A stretch of 64,000 nucleotides of DNA from Halobacillus litoralis (GTDB taxonomy: Bacteria; Bacillota; Bacilli; Bacillales; Halobacillaceae). The stretch's first letter is position 1; each line of letters opens with the position of its first letter. The position numbers and the translations under genes were made by a program. Shown here one piece after another: positions 16,663-35,329 of this stretch. The notes beneath the pieces are model-generated. The model was not told where the DNA came from and ran no database searches. It saw nothing but the letters and a program-made list of their open reading frames with translations. Location of the stretch: positions 377,001 through 441,000 of the forward strand of contig NZ_CP129016.1 in assembly GCF_020524085.2 (NCBI RefSeq), read 5' to 3'.

Positions 16663-17394
16663 CTACCTGAACCACTCCACCACACCGATCATACTGAGAA
16701 GCCCCAGCAAGAAGGAAAAAGTAGCGAGCCTTTCATATCCATGACCATGTGTTTCCGGTATCAATTCTTTATATACAATGAATAACATCGCTCCAGCAGC
16801 AAATGCGAGACCGTATGGAACGAGAAACAAAGCGATATGAACCATAAAAAAACCAAAAACACTAGCTAAACATTCAATGGCTCCTGTTAAAAAGGCCATC
16901 GCCACCCCTAACCATTTGCGCACGCCCTGATTTAACAAAAACAAGGCGACAAGAAAGCCTTCCGGAGCATTCTGCAAGCCCATTGATAAGGCGACGACCA
17001 GGCCAAGATTTTCAACTTCACTCGCCAAACTTGCTCCAACAGACAGACCTTCCGGAATATTATGCAAAGTCATAGCCGCAACGAACATAAGCCCCTGCTG
17101 AGGCAGTTTCACATCACTTCGTTCATGATCAAGGTCGATGTGAGGAATAATGTATTCCAATACGTTCAATAACAAGGCACCCACAAGAACTCCAAGACAG
17201 AGCACATACAAATTGGTTAACTTGAGCGAAGCAGGAATCAATCCGTAAGTCGAAGCTGCAACCATAATCCCCGCTGTATAAGCAAGGATGCTATCCATGC
17301 GCCTGTGTGAAATGCCACGTATGAATAGTACAGGGAGAGCTCCGACACTTGTGGCAAACGCCGACATCACCATTACCCATAAACTCCACTCCAT
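16663..17394 (-). CDS. ZIP-family divalent metal transporter
   Basis: Membrane protein of 243 residues with about eight predicted helices. The helix-4 signature HNIPEGLSVGASL and the helix-5 motif GLQNAPEGF supply the metal-binding His, Asn and Glu residues of ZIP transporters. It resembles ZupT/GufA-type proteins that take up zinc or other divalent metals. The specific metal is not evident. The ATG has a GGGGGGG run upstream as ribosome site. Confidence 0.88.
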   Translation of the reverse strand: MEWSLWVMVMSAFATSVGALPVLFIRGISHRRMDSILAYTAGIMVAASTYGLIPASLKLTNLYVLCLGVLVGALLLNVLEYIIPHIDLDHERSDVKLPQQGLMFVAAMTLHNIPEGLSVGASLASEVENLGLVVALSMGLQNAPEGFLVALFLLNQGVRKWLGVAMAFLTGAIECLASVFGFFMVHIALFLVPYGLAFAAGAMLFIVYKELIPETHGHGYERLATFSFLLGLLSMIGVVEWFR

Positions 17395-17583: not shown

Positions 17584-17654
17584 TTAATGAGTCAAAAGGA
17601 ACTTGTCTGAAAGAAAGATAGACTTTTGACAAAAAAATAGAAGGAGTGAACAAT

Positions 17655-18452
17655 ATGAGAAAAAACACAGGATGCGGAAATGGTTATGGACAAGGTAAAA
17701 AATGTCCATCTCTATCTAGTGATGTAGCTAAATCAAGAAGTTTATCTACAGAAACAGAAGAGTTCTCTACTGATGATAATGAAAAAACAAGAATTCTTGG
17801 TGATGTGTTGATCCAGTCTCTTACTGAGGCGGACTTCAAACTACCATCTTATGCTAGAGCCATTAAAAACATCGAGAAGAACGTTTCCTTGACACAGTGT
17901 AAAGCGATTCCCGTTGTCGGAAACCCTAGGTACGTGAAATTGTTTGTTGAAGGGGTCGTACACAAAAACATCCAGTATGTGGAAGATGGGTATGGATATG
18001 TCAAAGACTACAGCATCGATATCCCGTTTAAAGCGTACGATCAGGTTGAACTTGCAAACGACGTCCAGTATCCATTCGATTTCCCATACAGCGTGAAAGA
18101 CAACGTCCTCGAACGCCGTGAGCTTGCCAAAGACGGCATGGGCGCCAACCGTTGCGAATTCGGTTCTTTGACATTCGAAATCAACAACGAACCAATCAAA
18201 TGTAAACTTCTCGCTTCTGCTGTAAACCAGTGGGACATTGTGCATCATTTTGATAACTGGGGACGTTTCAACAAAGTAACGGAAAAAATGGACATTAACC
18301 TTGTCATTAAATTGACCCAAAAACAACAAGATCTCGATTTCCCACCAATTCCGCCAAATGGCGATAATGGTGGAGGAGGAGAAGCTCAGGCTTCTACAAC
18401 TCAACAACAAGAAACGGTTTACAGCCGCTTCCGAAAAATCATCGGTCAATAA
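17655..18452 (+). CDS. CsxC-like spore surface protein with SPOCS (DUF3794-type) domain, copy 1
   Basis: Protein of 265 residues. The N-terminus is Gly/Cys/Lys-rich (GCGNGYGQGKK). The core shares with the two copies downstream the pattern LTQCKAIP, LFVEGVVHKNIQYV and a long C-terminal helix VTEKMDINLVIKLTQKQQ. This is the SPOCS-type domain of sporulation proteins such as SipL and SpoVID and of the exosporium protein CsxC. The C-terminal tail is Gly/Gln-rich. It has diverged most of the three copies: the equivalents of HQESxxYNELPFCEL are absent. An AGAAGGAG site favours ATG 17655 over the GTG three codons earlier, which overlaps that site. A spore-coat or exosporium location is inferred. Confidence 0.8.
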   Translation: MRKNTGCGNGYGQGKKCPSLSSDVAKSRSLSTETEEFSTDDNEKTRILGDVLIQSLTEADFKLPSYARAIKNIEKNVSLTQCKAIPVVGNPRYVKLFVEGVVHKNIQYVEDGYGYVKDYSIDIPFKAYDQVELANDVQYPFDFPYSVKDNVLERRELAKDGMGANRCEFGSLTFEINNEPIKCKLLASAVNQWDIVHHFDNWGRFNKVTEKMDINLVIKLTQKQQDLDFPPIPPNGDNGGGGEAQASTTQQQETVYSRFRKIIGQ

Positions 18453-18504: not shown

Positions 18505-19905
18505 CTATATACGTACATATTGTTTTTGCAAAAGGTCATAGAGAATTTGAGCGGATCCTTGAATGTAGAGTTTCCCATCTGTCACAGAGGCATCACTATG
18601 ACTGACGAAGCGTACACTTTGCGCTTCTACTTCCACCTGTTCAACGAAGGTTTCAACAAACTCATAGTGCACGTTTCCTGTCCCGTCACACTCAAAAGTA
18701 TATTCCTTCCGATCTGAATACGGAATCTGCGGATCGCTCTTCCAATCTACACCCACTGTCTTCTCCCAAGGTACCGTCTGTCTGAGCTGCTGCAATGATT
18801 CACCATTGTCATAAATGACCTCCACCATGAGTACACCGCTAAGAAAAACATAAGAAGATGGCAGAACAACCGTTTCTTTTTGAGAGTGAATAGATAAGTG
18901 TATTTCTATGATTTCGCAAAGATCATCAGGAATATTCAACGTTTCCATAAGGTCCACTTCGACCATCTTAGTAGACAATAAGACGGGCACTTTCACGGTC
19001 ATGTTCCATGAGGAGTTTGACGATTCTTCCACTTCTTCACAAAGGAATTCCAAAGAAGAAGAACTCTCCATTACTTCCTGCTCGTGCACACATAGAGATT
19101 CTTCGTCCCCTTCCAGCGTACAAGATGAGCTTTCATCCAGAGGGAGGATTAATGAAGATTCTTCCTCCTCGTAAGACCATTCGATTTTTTCTGACCAGGA
19201 ACTGGATTCATCCAGCATGGAGCAGACCTCATGACGGAAGTTGTCGGATGGGTGTTCATTCCTTGGCTTTTCTACTGACATGTCTTCCTTTGGATAACCG
19301 AAGTCTTTCTCTTCCAAAATGATATTTTTCTGAGCATGGTAGTGATCCTTAAAATCTTGCCGATGGTCCGAGGACTCTTCCATGGAAGACACGATATCCG
19401 TCAAGATGGAGTAGTCTTGGCGATCATTTTCTACCATCTCTTGAGGATCGTTCATAGAACTCCAGTCTGGACTAGGATCCTCTTTTAGTAATGCTAGTAT
19501 TTCCGGAAGGAACGGGTTGTTTTTCTTCCTTTCCCTATCAGACTTCGTGGGAAGATGGTCCAATGATTCATCAAAAAAATCAACCCTGTTACTGGTACCT
19601 TCGACTATGGACTTCTGATCTTCCCGGAAGGAGGACATCCGTTTTCGGTTCTCCGCTAATCCATGTTCTTCCGTTTCTTCATCCAAAATTTTGGAAGGTG
19701 GGGAAATGACGGGTCGAGGCATTTCTCCACCTGAGTTGTAAGGAGAATAGATTTCATGGTAATTAATGGAAGAAGAGAGGTCTTCTTCGAATTGAAAATG
19801 ACGGGGAGGGATATCTTTCCCACGCTCTTCCTTTGTTTTCAATGGTTTGGGATGGGATCGTTTCGTCCAACGTGTTTGATTGAACTTGATTTCATCTCTT
19901 TTCAT
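18505..19905 (-). CDS. SpoVID/SipL-like spore protein with C-terminal SPOCS domain
   Basis: Protein of 466 residues in two parts. Residues 1 to about 300 are low-complexity and acidic, rich in Ser, Glu and Asp with recurring ESSS blocks, and likely disordered. Residues about 305-466 form a SPOCS-like domain: VKVPVLLSTKMVEVDL, then IEIHLSIHSQKETVVLPSSYVFLSGVLMVEVIY and a C-terminal helix. In B. subtilis SpoVID, a SPOCS-type N-terminal domain and an acidic region organise coat encasement; here the order is reversed. No clear LysM domain is seen. The ATG has no strong site of its own; it follows a nine-codon leader reading frame. Confidence 0.7.
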   Translation of the reverse strand: MKRDEIKFNQTRWTKRSHPKPLKTKEERGKDIPPRHFQFEEDLSSSINYHEIYSPYNSGGEMPRPVISPPSKILDEETEEHGLAENRKRMSSFREDQKSIVEGTSNRVDFFDESLDHLPTKSDRERKKNNPFLPEILALLKEDPSPDWSSMNDPQEMVENDRQDYSILTDIVSSMEESSDHRQDFKDHYHAQKNIILEEKDFGYPKEDMSVEKPRNEHPSDNFRHEVCSMLDESSSWSEKIEWSYEEEESSLILPLDESSSCTLEGDEESLCVHEQEVMESSSSLEFLCEEVEESSNSSWNMTVKVPVLLSTKMVEVDLMETLNIPDDLCEIIEIHLSIHSQKETVVLPSSYVFLSGVLMVEVIYDNGESLQQLRQTVPWEKTVGVDWKSDPQIPYSDRKEYTFECDGTGNVHYEFVETFVEQVEVEAQSVRFVSHSDASVTDGKLYIQGSAQILYDLLQKQYVRI

Positions 19906-19972: not shown

Positions 19973-20704
19973 TCAATCATCATTGGAAGCTGAAGCTACG
20001 CGTATTTGCTGGTCCTGGAGAACTTTCAAGTAAATATCAAGCACCATTTTTTCTTCGACTTGAGTAAAGTACCCTTCATTGAATGGTGAAGAACCCGGAA
20101 GAGGTTGACGATCGATGGCCTCATCCCATTCGATGATCTTACTGGAAAGAAGCTCACAATAAGGAAGCTCATTATAATATTGGCTGCTCTCCTGGTGATA
20201 TTGAGAAAGATCACTGCTCAACAGTTCATCCTTTTCAGGGAATCCAGAAGGTAAGGGTTGAGATACGGCAAAATCAAATTCTTCACGCTTATTATTTTTC
20301 GGCATGACCGGCATGGATAAGAAGTCTTTGACTTCAATCACCGTATCGAATGGAATATCAACGGTAAACGAATGGAGATCCGAAGCGACCGTCGTATCCG
20401 TGCTCATTTCAATTTCGTTCGATGGACTTGCATATTGGATATTTTTACGGACAAATCCTTTAATGAATAGTTTTTTTGTCGGGAGTAGCAAACGACATTG
20501 AGTCAAGGCGACTCTTTTCTTAATGTCTTTAATTTCAAGAACAGGTTCTGGAAAAGTGATGGTTTCATTTATGTTCAGCTGGACATTGAGTTCGGCGAGA
20601 ACGACCGGCACCTTTGTGACGATTTTGCCTATGCTCACATGAGGCTTGCATGGCTTACAATACCCTTTTTCACACTCATAGGAATCGTTATGTTTATCAG
20701 ACAT
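19973..20704 (-). CDS. CsxC-like spore surface protein with SPOCS domain, copy 2
   Basis: Protein of 243 residues. A Cys-rich N-terminus (CEKGYCKPCKP) is followed by VTKVPVVLAELNVQLNIN, FPEPVLEIKDIKKRVALTQCRLL and LFIKGFVRKNIQYASPS. Then come a variable segment and the conserved YHQESSQYYNELPYCELLSSKIIEWDEA block ending in a helix. It is closely similar to the next gene upstream, so a tandem duplication is likely. TAGGAGG lies 7 bases before ATG 20704. A sigma-K-like promoter is visible, which fits late mother-cell expression. Confidence 0.85.
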   Translation of the reverse strand: MSDKHNDSYECEKGYCKPCKPHVSIGKIVTKVPVVLAELNVQLNINETITFPEPVLEIKDIKKRVALTQCRLLLPTKKLFIKGFVRKNIQYASPSNEIEMSTDTTVASDLHSFTVDIPFDTVIEVKDFLSMPVMPKNNKREEFDFAVSQPLPSGFPEKDELLSSDLSQYHQESSQYYNELPYCELLSSKIIEWDEAIDRQPLPGSSPFNEGYFTQVEEKMVLDIYLKVLQDQQIRVASASNDD

Positions 20705-20733
20705 TCGATGGCCTCCTAAACGAAAGATATCCC

Positions 20734-20760
20734 CATGGTATGTAGAAGAACTGACAATGT
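20734..20760 (-). promoter_or_regulatory. Sigma-K-like promoter for CsxC-like copy 2
   Basis: On the minus strand AC (20759-20760) is followed after 16 bases by CATACCATG (20734-20742), close to the sigma-K consensus AC-N16/17-CATAnnnTA. It lies 30 bases before the start codon. Confidence 0.5.
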
Positions 20761-20846
20761 CTGGGCTCTTATCTCGACTTTGAGATACGTTCAAGCCAAC
20801 AAGCTGAAGGAGGATGAACCATCAATCGCCTATGAAATAAAATAAG

Positions 20847-20891: not shown

Positions 20892-21668
20892 TTATCCGTT
20901 TCCGTTTCCATTTCTGTCTAGTTCGACTTGTTGCTTTTGCAAAACTTTGATGCGGAATCGGACCATCATTTTCTCAACGATGTGGTGGAAGTAGCCTTCA
21001 TCAACCGGACCGTATGAATGGCGGTCTGTTGCTTCATCCCACTCGATGATGTCACTTGCGACAAGCTCACAGAATGGAAGCTCGTTGTACGCTTGTGTGC
21101 TCTCCTGGTGGTACTGAGAAAGATCGCTGGATAGATATTGATCTTTTTCAGGGAATCCTTCACCAAGGTCCTGAGCACGGAAGAAGTCAAATTCTCTTCT
21201 TGTATTCGCTACAGGAAGTTGAACCAATCCTTGAAGATCTACAGTCGTCATGCAGTCAAAATGGATTTTAGTCGTCAATGACTTCATATCAGATGATACA
21301 CATTCGCCTGAAGCACCGTACACCGGGCTAGCATATTGAATGTTTTTACGGACATACCCTTTGATGAACAATGGGAATTCTCCGTCGGTGAAAAGATCGT
21401 CGCTGCCTGTTGACGTACGAGTCATCAAACGACATTGAGTGATTACCACTCTTTTCTTAATGTCTTTGATTTCCAGTACAGGGTGCGGGAACTTAATGTT
21501 CGCTACAAGATGAGTCGTAACATCATAGGCTCCAAGTTCTACAGGAACTTTGATTGTCAGTTCATCTGCAGGGTTTACCGGAGTATCCGCTTCTGAGTTT
21601 GTGCAATTGTCAACTGAGGCTGAAGCATTAAGGTTTACACATTTATCGTGACAATTATCTTTTTTCAT
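20892..21668 (-). CDS. CsxC-like spore surface protein with SPOCS domain, copy 3
   Basis: Protein of 258 residues. The N-terminus has scattered Cys and Asn (NCHDKCVNLN). The SPOCS core reads LTIKVPVELGAYDVTTHL, HPVLEIKDIKKRVVITQCRLM, LFIKGYVRKNIQYASPV and YHQESTQAYNELPFCEL followed by EWDEATDRHS. It is the copy closest to family CsxC proteins of Bacillus exosporium. AAAGGAGG precedes the start; ATG 21668 or the adjacent GTG 21671 could be used. CATAGAATA (21701-21709) upstream fits a sigma-K -10 box without a clear -35. Confidence 0.87.
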   Translation of the reverse strand: MKKDNCHDKCVNLNASASVDNCTNSEADTPVNPADELTIKVPVELGAYDVTTHLVANIKFPHPVLEIKDIKKRVVITQCRLMTRTSTGSDDLFTDGEFPLFIKGYVRKNIQYASPVYGASGECVSSDMKSLTTKIHFDCMTTVDLQGLVQLPVANTRREFDFFRAQDLGEGFPEKDQYLSSDLSQYHQESTQAYNELPFCELVASDIIEWDEATDRHSYGPVDEGYFHHIVEKMMVRFRIKVLQKQQVELDRNGNGNG

Positions 21669-21860
21669 CACTATTTTCCTCCTTTATATTAACCTCACTG
21701 TATTCTATGCAATCTACTCTATTAAGCATGGTCATTTGAAGGAGTATAAACGTGGAACTTTGACCAAGTCATCTCATTTTAATAGATATCACCTGTAGTC
21801 TTTATCTACTTTCATTAAAAGTTTCTTATGTTGTAATCTCTATCTTCTCTCATTAGCATG

Positions 21861-22007
21861 GTTTACACTCTCTTCGGAACAGTTAACACATCCTTTGGCG
21901 CGGTTCGCACTAACTTTGGTGCGATTCGCACTCCCTTTGGCGCGGTCCGCACTCCCTTTGGCGCGATTCACACTCTCTTTGGCGCGGTCCGCACTCCCTC
22001 ACAGTCT
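21861..22007. repeat. Seven 21-bp tandem repeats upstream of the ParM-like gene
   Basis: Seven direct units of exactly 21 bp begin at 21861, 21882, 21903, 21924, 21945, 21966 and 21987. The consensus is close to GTTCGCACTCCCTTTGGCGC plus G; outer units are more degenerate and the last is half-conserved. A further ATTCGCAC occurs at 22041. The 21-bp period equals two helical turns, so each unit presents the same DNA face. It could be the centromere (parC-like) of the actin-type partition pair downstream. Similar low-complexity intergenic repeats also occur in other Bacillaceae, so this role is inference. The rest of 21672-22093 holds a six-bp hairpin (22061-22079) just before the parM ribosome site. 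Confidence 0.9.
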
Positions 22008-22093
22008 GATTTTTGCAGAGTTCGAGACAGGAAATTGGGTATTCGCACAGGGACTGCCTCTTCTACATAGGTTGTAGAATGAGGAGGTTGAAA

Positions 22094-23284
22094 ATGAACA
22101 GAAATAATTTTCTTGCCGTAGATGTCGGAAACAGCTGGTACAAAGCGTTGGTATCCGATCAAGGGGAAACGTTTGATTATCAGATGCCGAACGCAATCGC
22201 CTTGTTTGATGAGGAATTTTACGAAAAACCGTACGATGAAGAAGATGTGGATCTTGAGGAAAATTTGATCGTTGAAATCAAAAGCCCTTCCATTCAGGAT
22301 CGACGCGAGATCTTTTATATCGGTAAGTCAGCGATGCAGCAGAAAAACGTCAGCTTAACATCATTCAACAATCAAAAAGTTGACGAAGAACGCACGTACA
22401 TCTTACTTTTTGCAACCGCTGCGTATCATGCATTATTGACGAATCCTGCTGAGGGGGACCTGCAATTTACGATTGATCAGCTGGCGGTATCGTTACCTAC
22501 AACCCAATACAAAGAGAAAAAGAATCAATTCAAACAGCGCTTGATTGGAAATCATACGGTCATTTTTCATAAAGTTCCTGGTATAAGAGAACCGAAGGAA
22601 GTCGCGGTCAAAATACAAATTGAAGATGTCATCGTAGGTGCTGAAGGAGCCCTTGCCTACTTAGCTTTGACAAGGGATCAGGAGACGCTCATGATCTCGG
22701 ACGACTCACTCGTAAAGGATTCTTTCAAAGGCATCCTCATCGGTGACCTCGGTGGAGATTCTGTGGACTTTGTAGGGATCAAGAAAAATAAACCGGTGGC
22801 ATCTGTCGAAGGTGAGCCATTCGGCATCAACCAATTCCTCGACCATATCATACAAAAAGTAAGTAAAAATGAAATGTACAGCTTCAATTCACGGTCGGAG
22901 CTTGAAGAAAAACTCGTGGCCGGACAGTCCGAATGGTATGTTGAACCATTCGCGGGAGTACGAAAAGATATAAGTAAATACATCACCCCACAGATGCGTT
23001 TGATGGCTATCAAGTATCTTGAACATTTCGACCGGGTGAGAAGCCGTTCCATCGAAATTAAGGGTGCCTCCCGTTATATTGCGGTTGGTGGCGCCGCTGA
23101 AATCGCTGAAAAACATATCAAAGAAGCAGCCGTGAAATGGAATGAACGCGGCCGTCCGATTGAATTACTTTTCCCTGAAAACATGTCGCAATTGAATGTC
23201 CAGGGATTGATGATTCTTGCTAAGATGCAGTGGATCAGCAAAAACAAAGAATATGCGGACGATTACGCTTATATCAAAAGTTAG
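22094..23284 (+). CDS. parM: ParM/StbA-like actin-family protein
   Basis: Protein of 396 residues with the actin/Hsp70 ATPase fold of plasmid segregation proteins (ParM, Alp7A). Phosphate-1 motif is AVDVGNSWYKALV at the N-terminus, phosphate-2 is LIGDLGGDSVDFVGI near residue 220, and the adenosine motif is AVGGAAEIAEKH near residue 338. It has GAGGAGGTTG before the ATG. The small gene 11 bases downstream and the 21-bp repeats upstream reproduce the layout of type II partition loci. Filament formation and DNA segregation are expected from the family; why such a locus sits among spore-coat genes is unclear. Confidence 0.85.
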   Translation: MNRNNFLAVDVGNSWYKALVSDQGETFDYQMPNAIALFDEEFYEKPYDEEDVDLEENLIVEIKSPSIQDRREIFYIGKSAMQQKNVSLTSFNNQKVDEERTYILLFATAAYHALLTNPAEGDLQFTIDQLAVSLPTTQYKEKKNQFKQRLIGNHTVIFHKVPGIREPKEVAVKIQIEDVIVGAEGALAYLALTRDQETLMISDDSLVKDSFKGILIGDLGGDSVDFVGIKKNKPVASVEGEPFGINQFLDHIIQKVSKNEMYSFNSRSELEEKLVAGQSEWYVEPFAGVRKDISKYITPQMRLMAIKYLEHFDRVRSRSIEIKGASRYIAVGGAAEIAEKHIKEAAVKWNERGRPIELLFPENMSQLNVQGLMILAKMQWISKNKEYADDYAYIKS

Positions 23285-23295
23285 AGGGTGAAGGA

Positions 23296-23664
23296 ATGTC
23301 AAACGTATATCACGATTATTTTAAAGAAACCGTGCTTACGATCCCTGATTCCTTCATTGACATAAAGTCAGGAGACCAGCACCCGGTCTCCGCTGAAATT
23401 AAAGAGGAAATAGCCTATCATGCAGAAAATAACACCTTGAATCATTTGATTTTCTCTGCCTTGAACCACTACTTTCATAAAGCGGCTGTTTCTCAGCCAG
23501 AGGGTACCAATGGGGTCTTGTCTGAATTGCTGGAAATAAAAAGGTTGCTTGCGGGAGGTTCTTATCAAAGACGGAATGGACCACTATCCATCAAGAAACC
23601 CACTGGTTCTCAGGAGATGGACCTTCAGGAAATCGAGGATCTGTTAGAAGCTTTCGGAGGGTAA
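23296..23664 (+). CDS. Small ParR-like partner of the actin homologue
   Basis: Protein of 122 residues directly after the actin-like gene. The N-terminal half has a short strand (ETVLTIPDSF) followed by two helices, compatible with a ribbon-helix-helix DNA-binding fold. The middle is basic (SYQRRNGPLSIKKP), and the last 15 residues (MDLQEIEDLLEAFGG) form an acidic amphipathic helix like the filament-binding tail of ParR-type adaptors. I name it by position, size and this layout, not by confident family recognition. GTGAAGGA serves as ribosome site for ATG 23296; the frame overlaps the end of parM further upstream. Confidence 0.65.
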   Translation: MSNVYHDYFKETVLTIPDSFIDIKSGDQHPVSAEIKEEIAYHAENNTLNHLIFSALNHYFHKAAVSQPEGTNGVLSELLEIKRLLAGGSYQRRNGPLSIKKPTGSQEMDLQEIEDLLEAFGG

Positions 23665-23770: not shown

Positions 23771-24328
23771 TTACAAATGAACCGCTGGCAGGCAGGTAAT
23801 CGCACAGAAACATGATAAATCCACAGTGATGCAGATGCCGGTTCCGATGAGGTCATTCAAGCTCTTATGGTCTAGTTGATGACAGGCAGACCCGTGCTTG
23901 CTGTGACAATTCTTCGGATGCTTTTCTTTCAAGTCTGACTTAAAGTCAAGAAGCTCAAGAACCGCACAATCTTTATTCAATTCTTTGATCTTAAAAATGT
24001 GGGTATGGATACACTTGATTTTTTCTTTCTTAGAATGACAGGAATAAGTAGCTACCCCCGTGCCTTTGAAAGGTTCACAACCGCAATATAAAAGGAAAGG
24101 AATCGTGTTTTTCTTCACACGCTTCTCTCCTAGAAGCTCATTGATTGATTGCTGGCAAGATGTGTAGCAATCATCTTTTTTCACTTTCTTTTGCGCATAG
24201 AGAATCGCCTCTAATACTTCTTCTACACAGTTTTTATAATGTTTCATTTTATGTTGTTTATCTTTTTTTCCACAGCACCCACCTTTAGGGTGGTGATCAT
24301 AGTCATAGTCATACGCTCGGTAACTCAT
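23771..24328 (-). CDS. cotZ: CotY/CotZ-family spore coat protein
   Basis: Protein of 185 residues rich in Cys, His and Lys. It starts MSYRAYDYDYDHH and ends with the family signature GICITVDLSCFCAITCLPAVHL-like region, where five Cys cluster. FLLYCGCEPFKGTG is another conserved block. CotY and CotZ form the crust (outermost coat) of Bacillus spores, or exosporium layers in the B. cereus group, and polymerise through disulfides. The ATG at 24328 has AAGGAGTG upstream. An AC-N16-CGTATAATA element upstream resembles a sigma-K promoter with one mismatch. Which of CotY or CotZ it corresponds to is not certain. Confidence 0.85.
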   Translation of the reverse strand: MSYRAYDYDYDHHPKGGCCGKKDKQHKMKHYKNCVEEVLEAILYAQKKVKKDDCYTSCQQSINELLGEKRVKKNTIPFLLYCGCEPFKGTGVATYSCHSKKEKIKCIHTHIFKIKELNKDCAVLELLDFKSDLKEKHPKNCHSKHGSACHQLDHKSLNDLIGTGICITVDLSCFCAITCLPAVHL

Positions 24329-29631: not shown

Positions 29632-30829
29632 ATGGGGAACATGGAAACACTTCACCAGTCTAATTTTAAAGTAGGTGCCTTTTCGTTTTACGAAGAACTT
29701 CGCAGAGATCAACCAATTTTTCCGATGAACAGTGACGCAATGAATCACTCCTGGATGATTACAAAATACGATCACGTAAAAGAGCTGTTGAAATCACCCA
29801 GTTTCATTAAGGACCAAAGCAAGTTATTTTCTTCTTCACCTCAAGACACGGACCAAAACGACTTCAATATCTTCCAAAACATGATGCTCGACGTAGATCC
29901 ACCTGACCATACACGCCTGCGCAAACTTGTCCAACCTTACTTCAATCCTAAGACCATTAAGCAGCTGGAACCGAGAATCCGTGAAATTGCGGATGATCTA
30001 TTGAACAACATGAATCAAAAACACAAAACGATCAATTTAATTGATGATTATGCATTTCCACTGCCCATCATCGTCATCAGTGAGATGCTCGGTGTCCCCG
30101 CAGAGGATCGGGACAAATTCAGAAAATGGTCCAACACCATAGTCTCTGCCTCCAACGAGATGGACCCTGATTTTATGGGTGATGTAGAAGCTTTCACTAC
30201 ATACCTGACAGAGCTTTTTGAACAACGAAAATCAGAACCTCAAGATGATTTGGTTTCCCACCTCATTCAAACCGAAGAAGACGGCGAGCAGCTGACACGG
30301 AACGAACTCTATTCGATGATTGTCCTTTTGATCATCGCCGGCCACGAGACAACGGTCAATTTGATCGGGAATACCATGTATGCCTTGTTTGAGCATCCTG
30401 AACAGCTGAAAAAAAGTAAAGGCTGACCCTGCTCTCATTCCTGGTGCAATCGAAGAAGGGCTTCGCTATTACAGCCCTGTCGATTTTTCGACCGCTCGCT
30501 GGGCAGATGAAGACATCGATTTCCACGGCCAACTCATCAGACGTGGAGATTTCATTATCGCTTCAATCAGTTCAGCTAACCGCGATGAGGAAAAGTTTGA
30601 TCGGGCCTCCCAGTTTGATATTACGAGAGAAAGGAATGCCCACGTCGCGTTTGGATTTGGCATTCACTTTTGTCTGGGCGCCCCACTCGCCCGACTGGAA
30701 GGAAAGATTGCCTTGGAAAAACTGCTATCGACGTTTCCGGATATCGGCCTAAACCGTGATGTACGCTCGCCCGAATGGCGTTCCGTCTTCCTTTTAAGAG
30801 GACTTGATTCCCTCCCCGTTTCTTGGTGA
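29632..30829 (+). pseudogene. Cytochrome P450, single-base frameshift
   Basis: Soluble bacterial P450 of about 398 residues. The I-helix AGHETTVNLIGN motif is in the first frame. After a run of seven A (30409-30415) reading ends; removing one A gives KKVKADPALIPGAIEEGLRYYSPV and continues through the K-helix ExxR (EEGLR) to the heme-binding FGFGIHFCLGAPLARLE and a normal end. Both halves are well conserved, so the enzyme is probably intact in the organism. It resembles CYP107-type hydroxylases. Substrate and redox partner unknown. AGGAGG lies before the ATG. Confidence 0.88.
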
Positions 30830-32662: not shown

Positions 32663-32696
32663 AAAAAAGGTGCGATCTATAGATCGCACCTTTTTT
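32663..32696. terminator. Bidirectional terminator
   Basis: AAAAAAGGTGCGATCT and its complement form a 16-bp stem with a two-base loop and T7. It overlaps the stop codon of the convergent ATPase gene. Confidence 0.9.
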
Positions 32697-35308
32697 TATA
32701 ATTTACTTCTTAATAACCTCATACTATTGAGAATGACAAGTAAAGCTGCCCCTGTATCACTCAACACAGCCATCCATAAAGTCAGGACACCCGGGAAAAT
32801 AAGCATCAGTGCCGCGAGCTTTGTAACTAAGGAAAACCACACATTCTGTTTGATGATTTTCAACGCTTTCCTACTCAAGCGAATCGTGTGAGGAAGCTGT
32901 TCCAGGTTATCGGCCATCAAAACAATATCCGCCGTTTCCATAGCGGTATCCGTCCCTGCTCCCCCCATAGCGATGCCAAGATCAGAGGTCGCTAGAGCCG
33001 GGGCATCGTTGATTCCATCCCCAACCATGGCTACACTCTTTCCTTCTGCTTGAAGCTTCTTCACAGCTGAAACTTTATCCTCAGGTAAGAGCTCAGCGAA
33101 ATAACGATCGACGCCTGTTTCCCTGGAAATCTTATCCGCTGTTCCATTGTTGTCCCCTGTGAGCATCACCATTTCCTGCATTCCAACCTGCTTCAACTTT
33201 TGAATCGATTGAACGGTGATCTCCCGAATAGTATCGGCAACAGCGATAAGGCCTAGAACTTTCTCAGAGGTCCCTACAACGACAATGGTGTTGCCCTTTT
33301 TTTGCAACTGATCAATCCGTTCTTTTATATCAGAAAGCGGTACCTGCATGTCTTCATACAGCTTCGGACTTCCAGCGAAATATTCTACGCTATCCAACTT
33401 CGCCTTCGCCCCTTTTCCTGCAATGGCTTGAAAGTCTTCCCCTTCTATCGCTGCGATGTTTCGTTCGGTGGCATACGTCGTAATCGCCTGAGCAATCGGA
33501 TGAGTGGAGTGTTCTTCAATGGTTCTTGTCACACGAATCAGTTCATCTTCTCTTATGCCTAGTGCGTAAATTTGAGATACCTTTGGACGTCCTTCTGTTA
33601 GCGTCCCAGTCTTATCGAAAGCGATGGCTTTAATGGTTCCGGCTTTCTCAAGAAAAGTACCGCCCTTGATGAGGACACCATTTTTAGCTGCATTTCCAAT
33701 GGCCGAAACAATCGCGACCGGTGTGGAAATGACAAGCGCACAAGGACAGGCAACCACGAGTAAAGCGAGCCCTTTATACAACCACTCTCCCCATGTACCA
33801 AAGCCAACGAGAGGTGGAAGCACCATGACCAACAAAGCAAGTGTGAAAACAATTGGCGTATAGACACGTGCAAATCGGTCGACGAAAGCCTAGGTGGGAG
33901 CTCTTTTCTCTTGAGCCTCTTCCACAAGATGGATGATTTTAGCGATGGTTGTATCTTCCACGAGCTTCGTAACTTCAATTTCTAACGATCCACTTTCATT
34001 TACTGTACCTGCATAAACAACATCTCCCGTTTGTTTGTCTACAGGCAGGGACTCTCCCGTAATTGGAGCCTGATTGACACTGGATGTGCCTGATATCACA
34101 CCACCATCCAAAGGAATCTTCTCCCCAGGTTTAACGATGATGAGCTCACCAATTCCAACCTCTTCTACCGCTTTGCGGACGAGTTGGTTCCCTGATTTGA
34201 CCGTAGCTTCTTTTGGCGTGAGATTGATCAAACTCCTGATCGACTCTCTCGTCCGTTCAATCGATCGGTTCTGAAGGGTATTACCCAATGCGAAAAGCCA
34301 GACGACCATGGCCCCCTCAAACCACTCGCCGATCAGGGCTGCACCGATAGCGGCCGATGCCATGAGGACGTTCATATCCAAAGAACCGCTCTTGACTGCA
34401 TAAAAAGCACTTCTCGCAGGCTTGAAACCACCAATAAGAATGGCTGCCGCATAAAAGGCCACGATGAAATCAGAAGGAACACTTGTGAACGATCCAATAA
34501 AGCCGAGACCAAGGAACAGACCAGAGAAAGTCGTCGTTGATATGCCTTTAAGTTTGTTATCCTTCTGATTATGGACGCCTTCCTTGCCTTCCAAGGAAGC
34601 TTGAAAACCGGCCCTTCCTACTTCTTTTATGATCTCTTTCGGAGAGGTCGTATGGTGAATCTGCATCTTCCCTGTTGAAAATTGGACTTGAACGTCTTGA
34701 ACAGCAGGATTTTTACTCAAATGCTTTTCAATTGTCTTGGCACAAGAGCCACAATCCATCCCGTCTATTTTATAGGTTTGCTGATTCTTATGACGATCCA
34801 CCCGTTCCGCTTCAAAGCCCAAGCGGCGTATGTGCTTCGGAATCTGGTCATAGAGAGATTCATTCTCGGCACCTACTGTCATCTTCCCCGTCCCGTACTG
34901 AACACTAATCGATTGGACACCGCTGATTTTCTGCAGGCCTTTTTCAATCGTAGCTGCACACGAAGGACAGTCCATGCCTTTCACATCGAACTTCACAACG
35001 TTTGAACCTTCAGGACTGTCTGAGGTACAGCATGAAACATTTTCTTGTTCATTTCCACAACAATCGTCTTGGGAAGCTTCACCACCCTTGGTATCACTAG
35101 AACAACACGTTGTGGTTGACTCCGCCTCTTCTGGAGCAGTGGAGCAACAAGATGTCTCCATTTTGTCTCCATCCTTAGCGCTGGAACTGGAACAACAAGT
35201 GACTTGCGGCTCCTGTTCTTCTTTAGCACTCGAGCAACAGGACACCGCTTCATCTTTCAAAACCTTTTCCGAACTTGAACAACAGCTCGATTTCTTCTCC
35301 TCATTCAT
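32696..35308 (-). pseudogene. cadA: CadA-type heavy-metal P1B-ATPase, in-frame TAG
   Basis: Metal-exporting ATPase of about 870 residues. The first 100 residues are an unusual Cys-rich region with about seven CC-containing blocks (SSCCSS, SCCSS, TCCSSS, TSCCS, TTCCSS, DCCG, SCCTS). Two HMA domains follow (GMDCPSC, GMDCGSC), then the membrane domain with TGESLPVDKQ, the CPC motif in VACPCALVIST, DKTGTL phosphorylation site and GDGINDAPAL. A TAG at 33890-33892 interrupts the frame after EKRAPT; the same frame continues AFVDRFARVYTP, where relatives have a Gln (CAG), so one C-to-T change explains it. The neighbouring CadC-type repressor suggests Cd/Zn/Pb as substrate. If the stop is real, translation could restart inside only poorly. 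Confidence 0.88.
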
Positions 35309-35329
35309 TCCTCTCACCTCTGTTTCTCT

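Follow-up and report, generated by a model that had tools for sequence, protein, structure and literature searches.

Organization of the locus

The window, i.e. the whole stretch of 64,000 nucleotides of Halobacillus litoralis analysed here, carries at 22094..23284 (+ strand; ATG at 22094, stop codon ending at 23284) a gene for an actin-like protein of 396 aa. A small gene of 122 aa (23296..23664, + strand) begins eleven bases past it. The pair is set among spore-surface genes. On its left lie csxC_u1 (20892..21671, - strand), divergent from the actin-like gene, then csxC_u2 (19973..20794, - strand), a gene for a SPOCS-domain-like protein of 466 aa (18505..19905, - strand) and, at the far end of the cluster, csxC_u4 (17646..18452, + strand). 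On its right a CotZ-family spore coat gene (23771..24328, - strand) is convergent; its start was chosen at ATG 24328, the frame being open back to 24526. The products of csxC_u1, csxC_u2 and csxC_u4 score 245.8, 261.1 and 155.2 bits respectively against the CsxC family of NCBIfam (NF045794, cut-off 135), and the CotZ assignment has an E of 4.2e-46 (Pfam PF10612). Thus the spore-surface neighbours reported in a preliminary description of this DNA are confirmed. The SPOCS-like protein stays just below the cut-off of Pfam SipL/SPOCS (22.1 bits for 23.6). CsxC was identified in, and named from, the exosporium of Clostridium sporogenes (PMC4942563).

The actin-like protein

The actin-like protein matches the Pfam families ALP_N (E 7.5e-14) and Alp7A_like_C (E 3.3e-5), both above cut-off, and the top Foldseek match of its AF2 model (pLDDT 72, pTM 0.77) is Alp7A (5ec0, E 9e-21). 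These matches bear out its earlier assignment to the ParM family; it is of the ParM/Alp7A type. The other best PDB folds are Bacillus thuringiensis ParM, CorM of Anabaena (PDB 9rmi) and other ParMs, while DnaK/Hsp70 and PilM rank lower. The nucleotide motifs D10-x-G12-N13-S14, D218-L-G-G-D222 and G332-G333 are invariant in 20/20 aligned actins, a subset of the orthologs that includes the window protein. We predict for it the ATPase activity of the ParM-type actin-fold proteins of type II partition systems.

Relatives of the protein occur in 24 plasmid records with an identity of at most 32.1%, and the phage collection searched gave no match. A midpoint-rooted tree was built from the window protein, 21 orthologs, nine weak-match proteins and five plasmid proteins; the window actin and the 21 orthologs form one clade (support 0.81) on a long stem. 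The actin is the most conserved and slowest-evolving of the seven cluster genes compared, with a median identity to the window of 73.8% vs 31.3-68.7% for the six others. Its frame is interrupted at two loci, L108 (Compostibacillus humi) and L115 (Bacillus sp. J33), by gene decay or by a sequencing error; the actin gene may thus decay while csxC remains adjacent.

The small protein

The acidic C-terminal helix attributed earlier to the 122-aa protein is present, and this tail is conserved in its relatives. A conserved N-terminal block (approximately residues 5-60) is followed by a helix and a variable linker. The last twelve residues (111-122, encoded at 23626-23661) are again conserved and finish with AFGG; an F-(G/L)-G end is kept in 70 of the 74 aligned small proteins. 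ParR tails dock on ParM, and a peptide that docks on its partner would be expected to look like this, i.e. conserved and attached by a loose linker.

The small protein is not recognisable as ParR. No Pfam or NCBIfam profile matched it above cut-off, and no solved structure matched its AF2 model, in which the N-terminal domain is strand-helix-helix, i.e. compatible with an RHH fold but not showing one. Compared with a set of eight ParR-like proteins, the profile of the small proteins (alignment of 41 sequences) gave an hhalign probability of 0.7%; the label "ParR-like" is thus not supported by sequence comparisons. As the fold was not identified, the role of partner rests on the gene pairing and the C-terminal motif. 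A match to the DNA-binding YbaB family (E 0.063, below cut-off, in 2/41 members) was judged to be due to chance, as were other weak Pfam matches among the small proteins. The charge of the N-terminal domain (median -2, from -8 to +2, n = 73, vs -2 to +4 for the eight ParR-like proteins) was considered as an argument against DNA binding and found too weak. Four database entries (P0001-P0004) name the 122-aa protein "dehydrogenase" and list no domain for it.

Conservation of the pair

Patterns of the window protein were used to find 75 loci in named genomes, which are by design close relatives. The small gene directly follows the actin-like gene in 73 of them, and the two others (L068 and L114) are contigs ending at that point. 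Loss of the gene order, which would have spoken against the pair, was therefore not found. The gap between the two genes is 4-19 bases in 70 of the 72 loci for which both genes were taken up; the other two are L108 and L115, with their broken actin frame.

The pair is conserved at 64-97% identity, in the company of its spore neighbours, in records bearing sixteen genus names, which include Halobacillus, Priestia, Cytobacillus, Niallia, Rossellomorea, Mesobacillus, Neobacillus, Metabacillus, Solibacillus, Oceanobacillus, Thalassobacillus and Pontibacillus, a count that excludes three doubtful record titles (Pseudomonas, Chryseobacterium and Paenibacillus). L059 (Pseudomonas sp. ISL-84) and L073 (Chryseobacterium sp. 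ISL-80) carry a Bacillaceae cluster with an actin identity of 73-76% and are probably mislabelled or contaminated. In the window the pair sits in a 3.9-Mb contig and not, as a type II partition system, on a plasmid. A chromosomal parM-type gene with an adjacent small gene, conserved among species, is the arrangement described for chromosome-encoded ParMs (cParMR).

Association with csxC and spore formation

At 74 of the same 75 loci the direct neighbour of the actin gene on its divergent side is csxC; the remaining one (L110) is a contig that starts inside the actin gene. The SPOCS-like gene was located at 72 loci and is never separated from the actin gene by anything but csxC genes: one (13 loci), two (58) or three (1). 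A further csxC on the + strand is found to the left of the SPOCS-like gene in 59/75. The CotZ gene is downstream of the small gene in 48 loci, elsewhere in 10, and was not found in 17 within the DNA compared. The same cluster is present in a distant carrier (G094), with no CotZ match within the 17 kb examined.

In the family of the window, orthologs of the actin and of csxC_u1 co-occur in exactly the same 22 of 44 genomes, which are related and do not amount to 44 independent trials. Actin orthologs were counted at E 1.1e-100 or better, all other matches being at 9.3e-22 or weaker, and csxC_u1 orthologs at E 1.9e-84 or better; two genomes, G020 and G030, have only weak csxC matches (E 6.1e-7 and 1.5e-4 respectively). 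Inside three genera the carriers are patchy (17/22, 2/11 and 2/5). SpoIVA is found in 41/44 genomes of the family, including 19 of the 22 that do not carry the actin ortholog. This result indicates that the module is an accessory of spore formers. A class-wide search retrieved the small protein in 5/398 genomes, all five with SpoIVA, which says little given the base rate of SpoIVA (268/398).

The pair is thus inherited together with csxC genes, and its membership in a spore-surface module is well supported. Neighbourhood alone is no proof of a function in surface assembly.

Promoter of the pair

A sigma-K-like promoter, GCACA-N16-CATAGGTT, precedes the actin gene at 22045..22073 (+ strand). 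We searched for the strict pattern GCAC(A/C/G)-N13-17-CATA-N3-T at no more than 120 bases from the start in 75 upstream regions (the window and 74 loci; L110, which starts inside the gene, was left out). It is present in 73 of them, with a spacing of 17, 16 or 15. In 200 rounds of base shuffling the mean number of regions with the pattern was 0.065 and the maximum 2, and it occurs in none of the reversed or reverse-complement regions. In the 64-kb window 22045-22073 is the sole strict match on either strand. The two regions without it are L049, which has a T at the fifth -35 base and fits a looser pattern, and L108, whose actin frame is also broken.

The sigma-K consensus is quoted as [a/c]AC[a/c] N16 CATA N3 TA in PMC5749712, and its elements are described in PMC517825 as a -35 of five bases and a -10 of ten bases with a gap of 14-16. 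The window promoter, CACA-N16-CATA-GGT-TG, differs from the quoted consensus by one base, the last (PMC5749712); the full consensus has no perfect match anywhere in the 64-kb window. According to PMC517825 the -10 elements of sigma-K and sigma-E are alike and the -35 elements differ by one base. Some loci may thus be served by sigma-E. On the csxC side a sigma-K-type -10 was counted in 44/75 regions vs a shuffle mean of 3.5, a supportive but incomplete count since the csxC start was located by the ribosome-site pattern only. The promoter sequence, found in 73/75 regions, predicts sporulation-dependent expression of the pair.

The 21-bp repeats and the search for a centromere

The intergenic region contains 21-bp tandem repeats at 21892..21999. 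TRF gives a period of 21, 5.1 copies and an 81% match; by eye five copies are clear, and ahead of them lie a fragment and one copy that has decayed badly. The period score is approximately 50, whereas shuffling the 500 upstream bases ten times never gave more than 10. The array is thus real and non-random; the "seven exact-period" repeats of the preliminary description are an overstatement.

The preliminary description read these repeats, the actin gene and the small gene as the parC-parM-parR layout of a plasmid partition system. Sought in relatives, this three-part arrangement divides: the two genes stay together in 73/75 loci, while the repeats leave a trace in 1/74. Of the 75 upstream regions two have a 21-bp array that rises clearly over the shuffles, namely that of the window and, with 2.3 copies, that of L044 (Halobacillus sp. 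Nhm2S1), a near relative; the repeats are absent from the 73 others. Elsewhere in its own genome the repeat is found, with up to two mismatches, at three places, one of which has three copies (C1:2659836-2659916). Over the genus, matches occur in 8/22 Halobacillus genomes. In five of these (G000, G002, G005, G010 and G021) the repeat forms arrays, which lie either on contigs other than that of the actin gene or over 12 kb away from it; all five carry the pair, and G021 has two repeat copies beside it as well. As a control the pattern was reversed; it then matched 12 times in the 22 genomes, 0-2 times in each, so that the single matches in G013, G015 and G018 may be due to chance. As the single matches, those of the own genome included, are perhaps chance, the dispersal rests on the five genomes with arrays. 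The family consists of TTTGGCGCGATTCGCACT plus 3 bases in several Halobacillus genomes, and its places include G002:C33:63748-63870 and G010:C50:52654-53247.

The 21-bp array is thus a dispersed repeat that happens to sit upstream of the pair; we place it outside the system. Neither conserved in orthologous upstream regions nor confined to the vicinity of parM, it is not a parC, and this part of the proposed layout falls by the very outcome, repeats scattered away from parM, that had been named beforehand as speaking against it. More generally, no conserved tandem iterons were found beside the genes within the 500-base upstream regions. The site search upstream of the pair covered tandem repeats in these 500 bases and the iteron core of the second system described below.

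A single-copy candidate was also considered, i.e. a conserved 22-bp AATCAGTATAAACGTGGAATTT-like motif in the promoter region of csxC_u1 (21739..21760 in the window). Its spacing was surveyed in 330 bases per locus, a range outside which the window's own copy falls. With up to 6 mismatches the motif is present at 47 loci. Its distance to the csxC -10 is 37-38 bp at 33 of these and 26 bp at 3, no -10 pattern having been found at the remaining 11; its distance to the actin -35 is variable. We rejected the motif as a parC because it is the csxC promoter, rather than the actin gene, from which it keeps its distance. It is perhaps an activator site of spore-surface genes.

A second actin-like pair in the same genome

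The same chromosome carries a second actin-like gene (G000:C1:1082675, loci L012 and L155), 26-28% identical to the window actin. Its pair spans L155:7270-9466 (G000:C1, about 1082270-1084466) and has relatives at L035-L041. Like the window pair it consists of an actin-like gene and a downstream small gene on the chromosome. Unlike it, it has a ParR-like protein and iteron-like cores: the downstream gene encodes a protein of 199 aa, and a profile made from this protein and seven relatives has a weak match to the Arc repressor (E 0.0037). Upstream of the actin gene there are 6 TGYNNRCA cores, for 0.22 in shuffles, and the self-match of the region is strongest at 20 bases. Seven relatives were tried and six located (L038 was not); the six have 3-7 cores, and the strongest self-match is again at 20 bases in five of them. 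Thus the same methods do find iterons and a ParR-like protein where they are present. The window intergenic region contains 0 of these cores, which we do not use as an argument because only 0.2 are expected and another ParR would use another site.

The second pair also differs in its distribution, as it occurs in genomes of the family with or without csxC. A weak actin match of this kind is found in 41/44 family genomes, that of G037 grouping with a plasmid protein. The three genomes with no actin match at all (G035, G036 and G038) are the three without SpoIVA.

A proposed role in spore-surface assembly

We propose, with a probability of slightly more than one half (about 0.55), that the pair is a domesticated ParM/Alp7A-type actin with a small filament partner, acting late in the mother cell in the assembly of the spore surface. 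A further statement, that many Bacillaceae possess a sporulation-specific filament of the ParM/Alp7A type which has lost its centromere and DNA-binding partner and which, made under sigma-K in the mother cell, lays out or anchors the CsxC-based outer layer of the spore, we hold to be somewhat less probable than its negation. Of the three options left by the preliminary description, we retain that of a filament used in sporulation, the filament itself being a prediction. A domesticated segregation system agrees with the ancestry of the pair but not with repeats that are unconserved and arrayed away from parM.

The filament mechanism that we infer is the following. A two-gene chromosomal operon of ParM/Alp7A ancestry would have become fixed in an accessory exosporium or outer-coat module and would be transcribed late in the mother cell from its sigma-K-type promoter. 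The actin-like ATPase would probably polymerise about the forespore, or close to it, after engulfment. Of the small protein, the conserved C-terminal helix probably binds the filament, and the N-terminal domain probably links it to CsxC, the SPOCS-like protein, CotZ or the forespore membrane. Filament and partner may then guide where the surface layer is laid down, with the CsxC proteins as presumed cargo.

Sigma-K acts after the chromosomes have already been divided between the compartments, so a pair transcribed late in the mother cell is unlikely to have DNA segregation as its task. That the small protein is nevertheless a ParR, bound to the 21-bp repeats or to other, unrecognised or distant sites, and that the filament moves DNA of the chromosome or of a plasmid, has in its favour the gene order found on plasmids, the conserved acidic C-terminus, an N-terminal domain compatible with an RHH fold though not showing one, and the limits of a site search that covered only the tandem repeats and one other iteron core. 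The absence of the repeats from 73/74 of the other upstream regions, the arrays lying away from parM and the hhalign probability of 0.7%, added to the timing, make it very improbable. It is hardly conceivable that the pair is the leftover of an integrated plasmid without present function. The ParM ancestry, the 24 plasmid records and the frames broken in 2/75 loci can be cited for a remnant; conservation at 64-97% together with the spore neighbours over sixteen genus names contradicts it, as do the slow evolution of the actin relative to the cluster genes compared, the low identity of the plasmid matches and the phage collection without a match.

Two other alternatives keep the pair in sporulation. 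The actin fold is shared with DnaK/Hsp70 and PilM, both of them lower-ranking matches of the fold search above, and polymerisation of the window protein is a prediction; it might thus be a monomeric or oligomeric actin-fold ATPase, e.g. a chaperone-like or scaffold-loading factor for CsxC. We consider this rather unlikely as the best structural and Pfam matches are of the ParM/Alp7A type, whose members are known to polymerise (PMC12270681). Another late task, e.g. forespore positioning or mother-cell lysis, with csxC merely co-inherited, agrees with a promoter that points to the late mother cell only and with the fact that function is not readable from sequence. Against it stands that the pair and csxC occur in exactly the same genomes although SpoIVA is retained by 19 of the 22 non-carriers, and we regard this alternative as improbable.

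Comparison with known systems

Type II (ParMRC) plasmid partition and Alp7A of Bacillus subtilis plasmids share with the window pair the actin fold with ALP_N and Alp7A_like_C and a small gene directly downstream, annotated in four of five plasmid loci. The window pair differs from them in being chromosomal, without conserved tandem iterons, with a small protein not recognisable as ParR, and in having a sigma-K-like promoter amid spore-surface genes. CorM/CorR is reportedly a ParMR system turned into a cell-cortex cytoskeleton. It would resemble the window pair in having a job other than segregation; the bacteria, the setting and presumably the cargo are different.

Chromosome-encoded ParMs (cParMR), some of them conserved in Bacillus, were reported by Ali et al. 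2025 (PMC12270681). By their description they are like the window pair, i.e. a conserved chromosomal ParM-type gene with a neighbouring small gene. The paper lists cassettes of Bacillus tropicus, leaving their function open, and its discussion describes what cParMs do as "yet to be explored"; a sporulation-specific amidase is part of its Clostridium cluster (PMC12270681). Its text uses "sporulation" once and neither "halobacillus" nor "spore" (PMC12270681). CsxC of C. sporogenes belongs to the same NCBIfam family as the neighbours of the pair, and the available part of its account mentions no actin-like partner (PMC4942563). Among the matches listed from open-licence papers, considered by titles and starts of abstracts, there was no account of a sporulation actin of the ParM type.

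Here promoter, neighbours and co-inheritance connect one clade of the chromosomal ParM-type actins with a concrete process. If the proposal is true, the spore surface is built with the participation of a cytomotive filament, and a machine for plasmid segregation would once more have been converted into a cytoskeleton of the cell.

Other observations in the window

The neighbour gene at 16663-17394 was searched in eight genomes. In G008 (L144) d2 and d3 adjoin it; at loci L145, L147 and L149 no window neighbours were found within 3.7 kb. Two genes named by eye appear split: a cytochrome-P450-like frame at 29632-30752 (264 + 102 aa), and a metal-transporting P-type ATPase with a cysteine-rich N-terminus at 32696-35317, in two frames.
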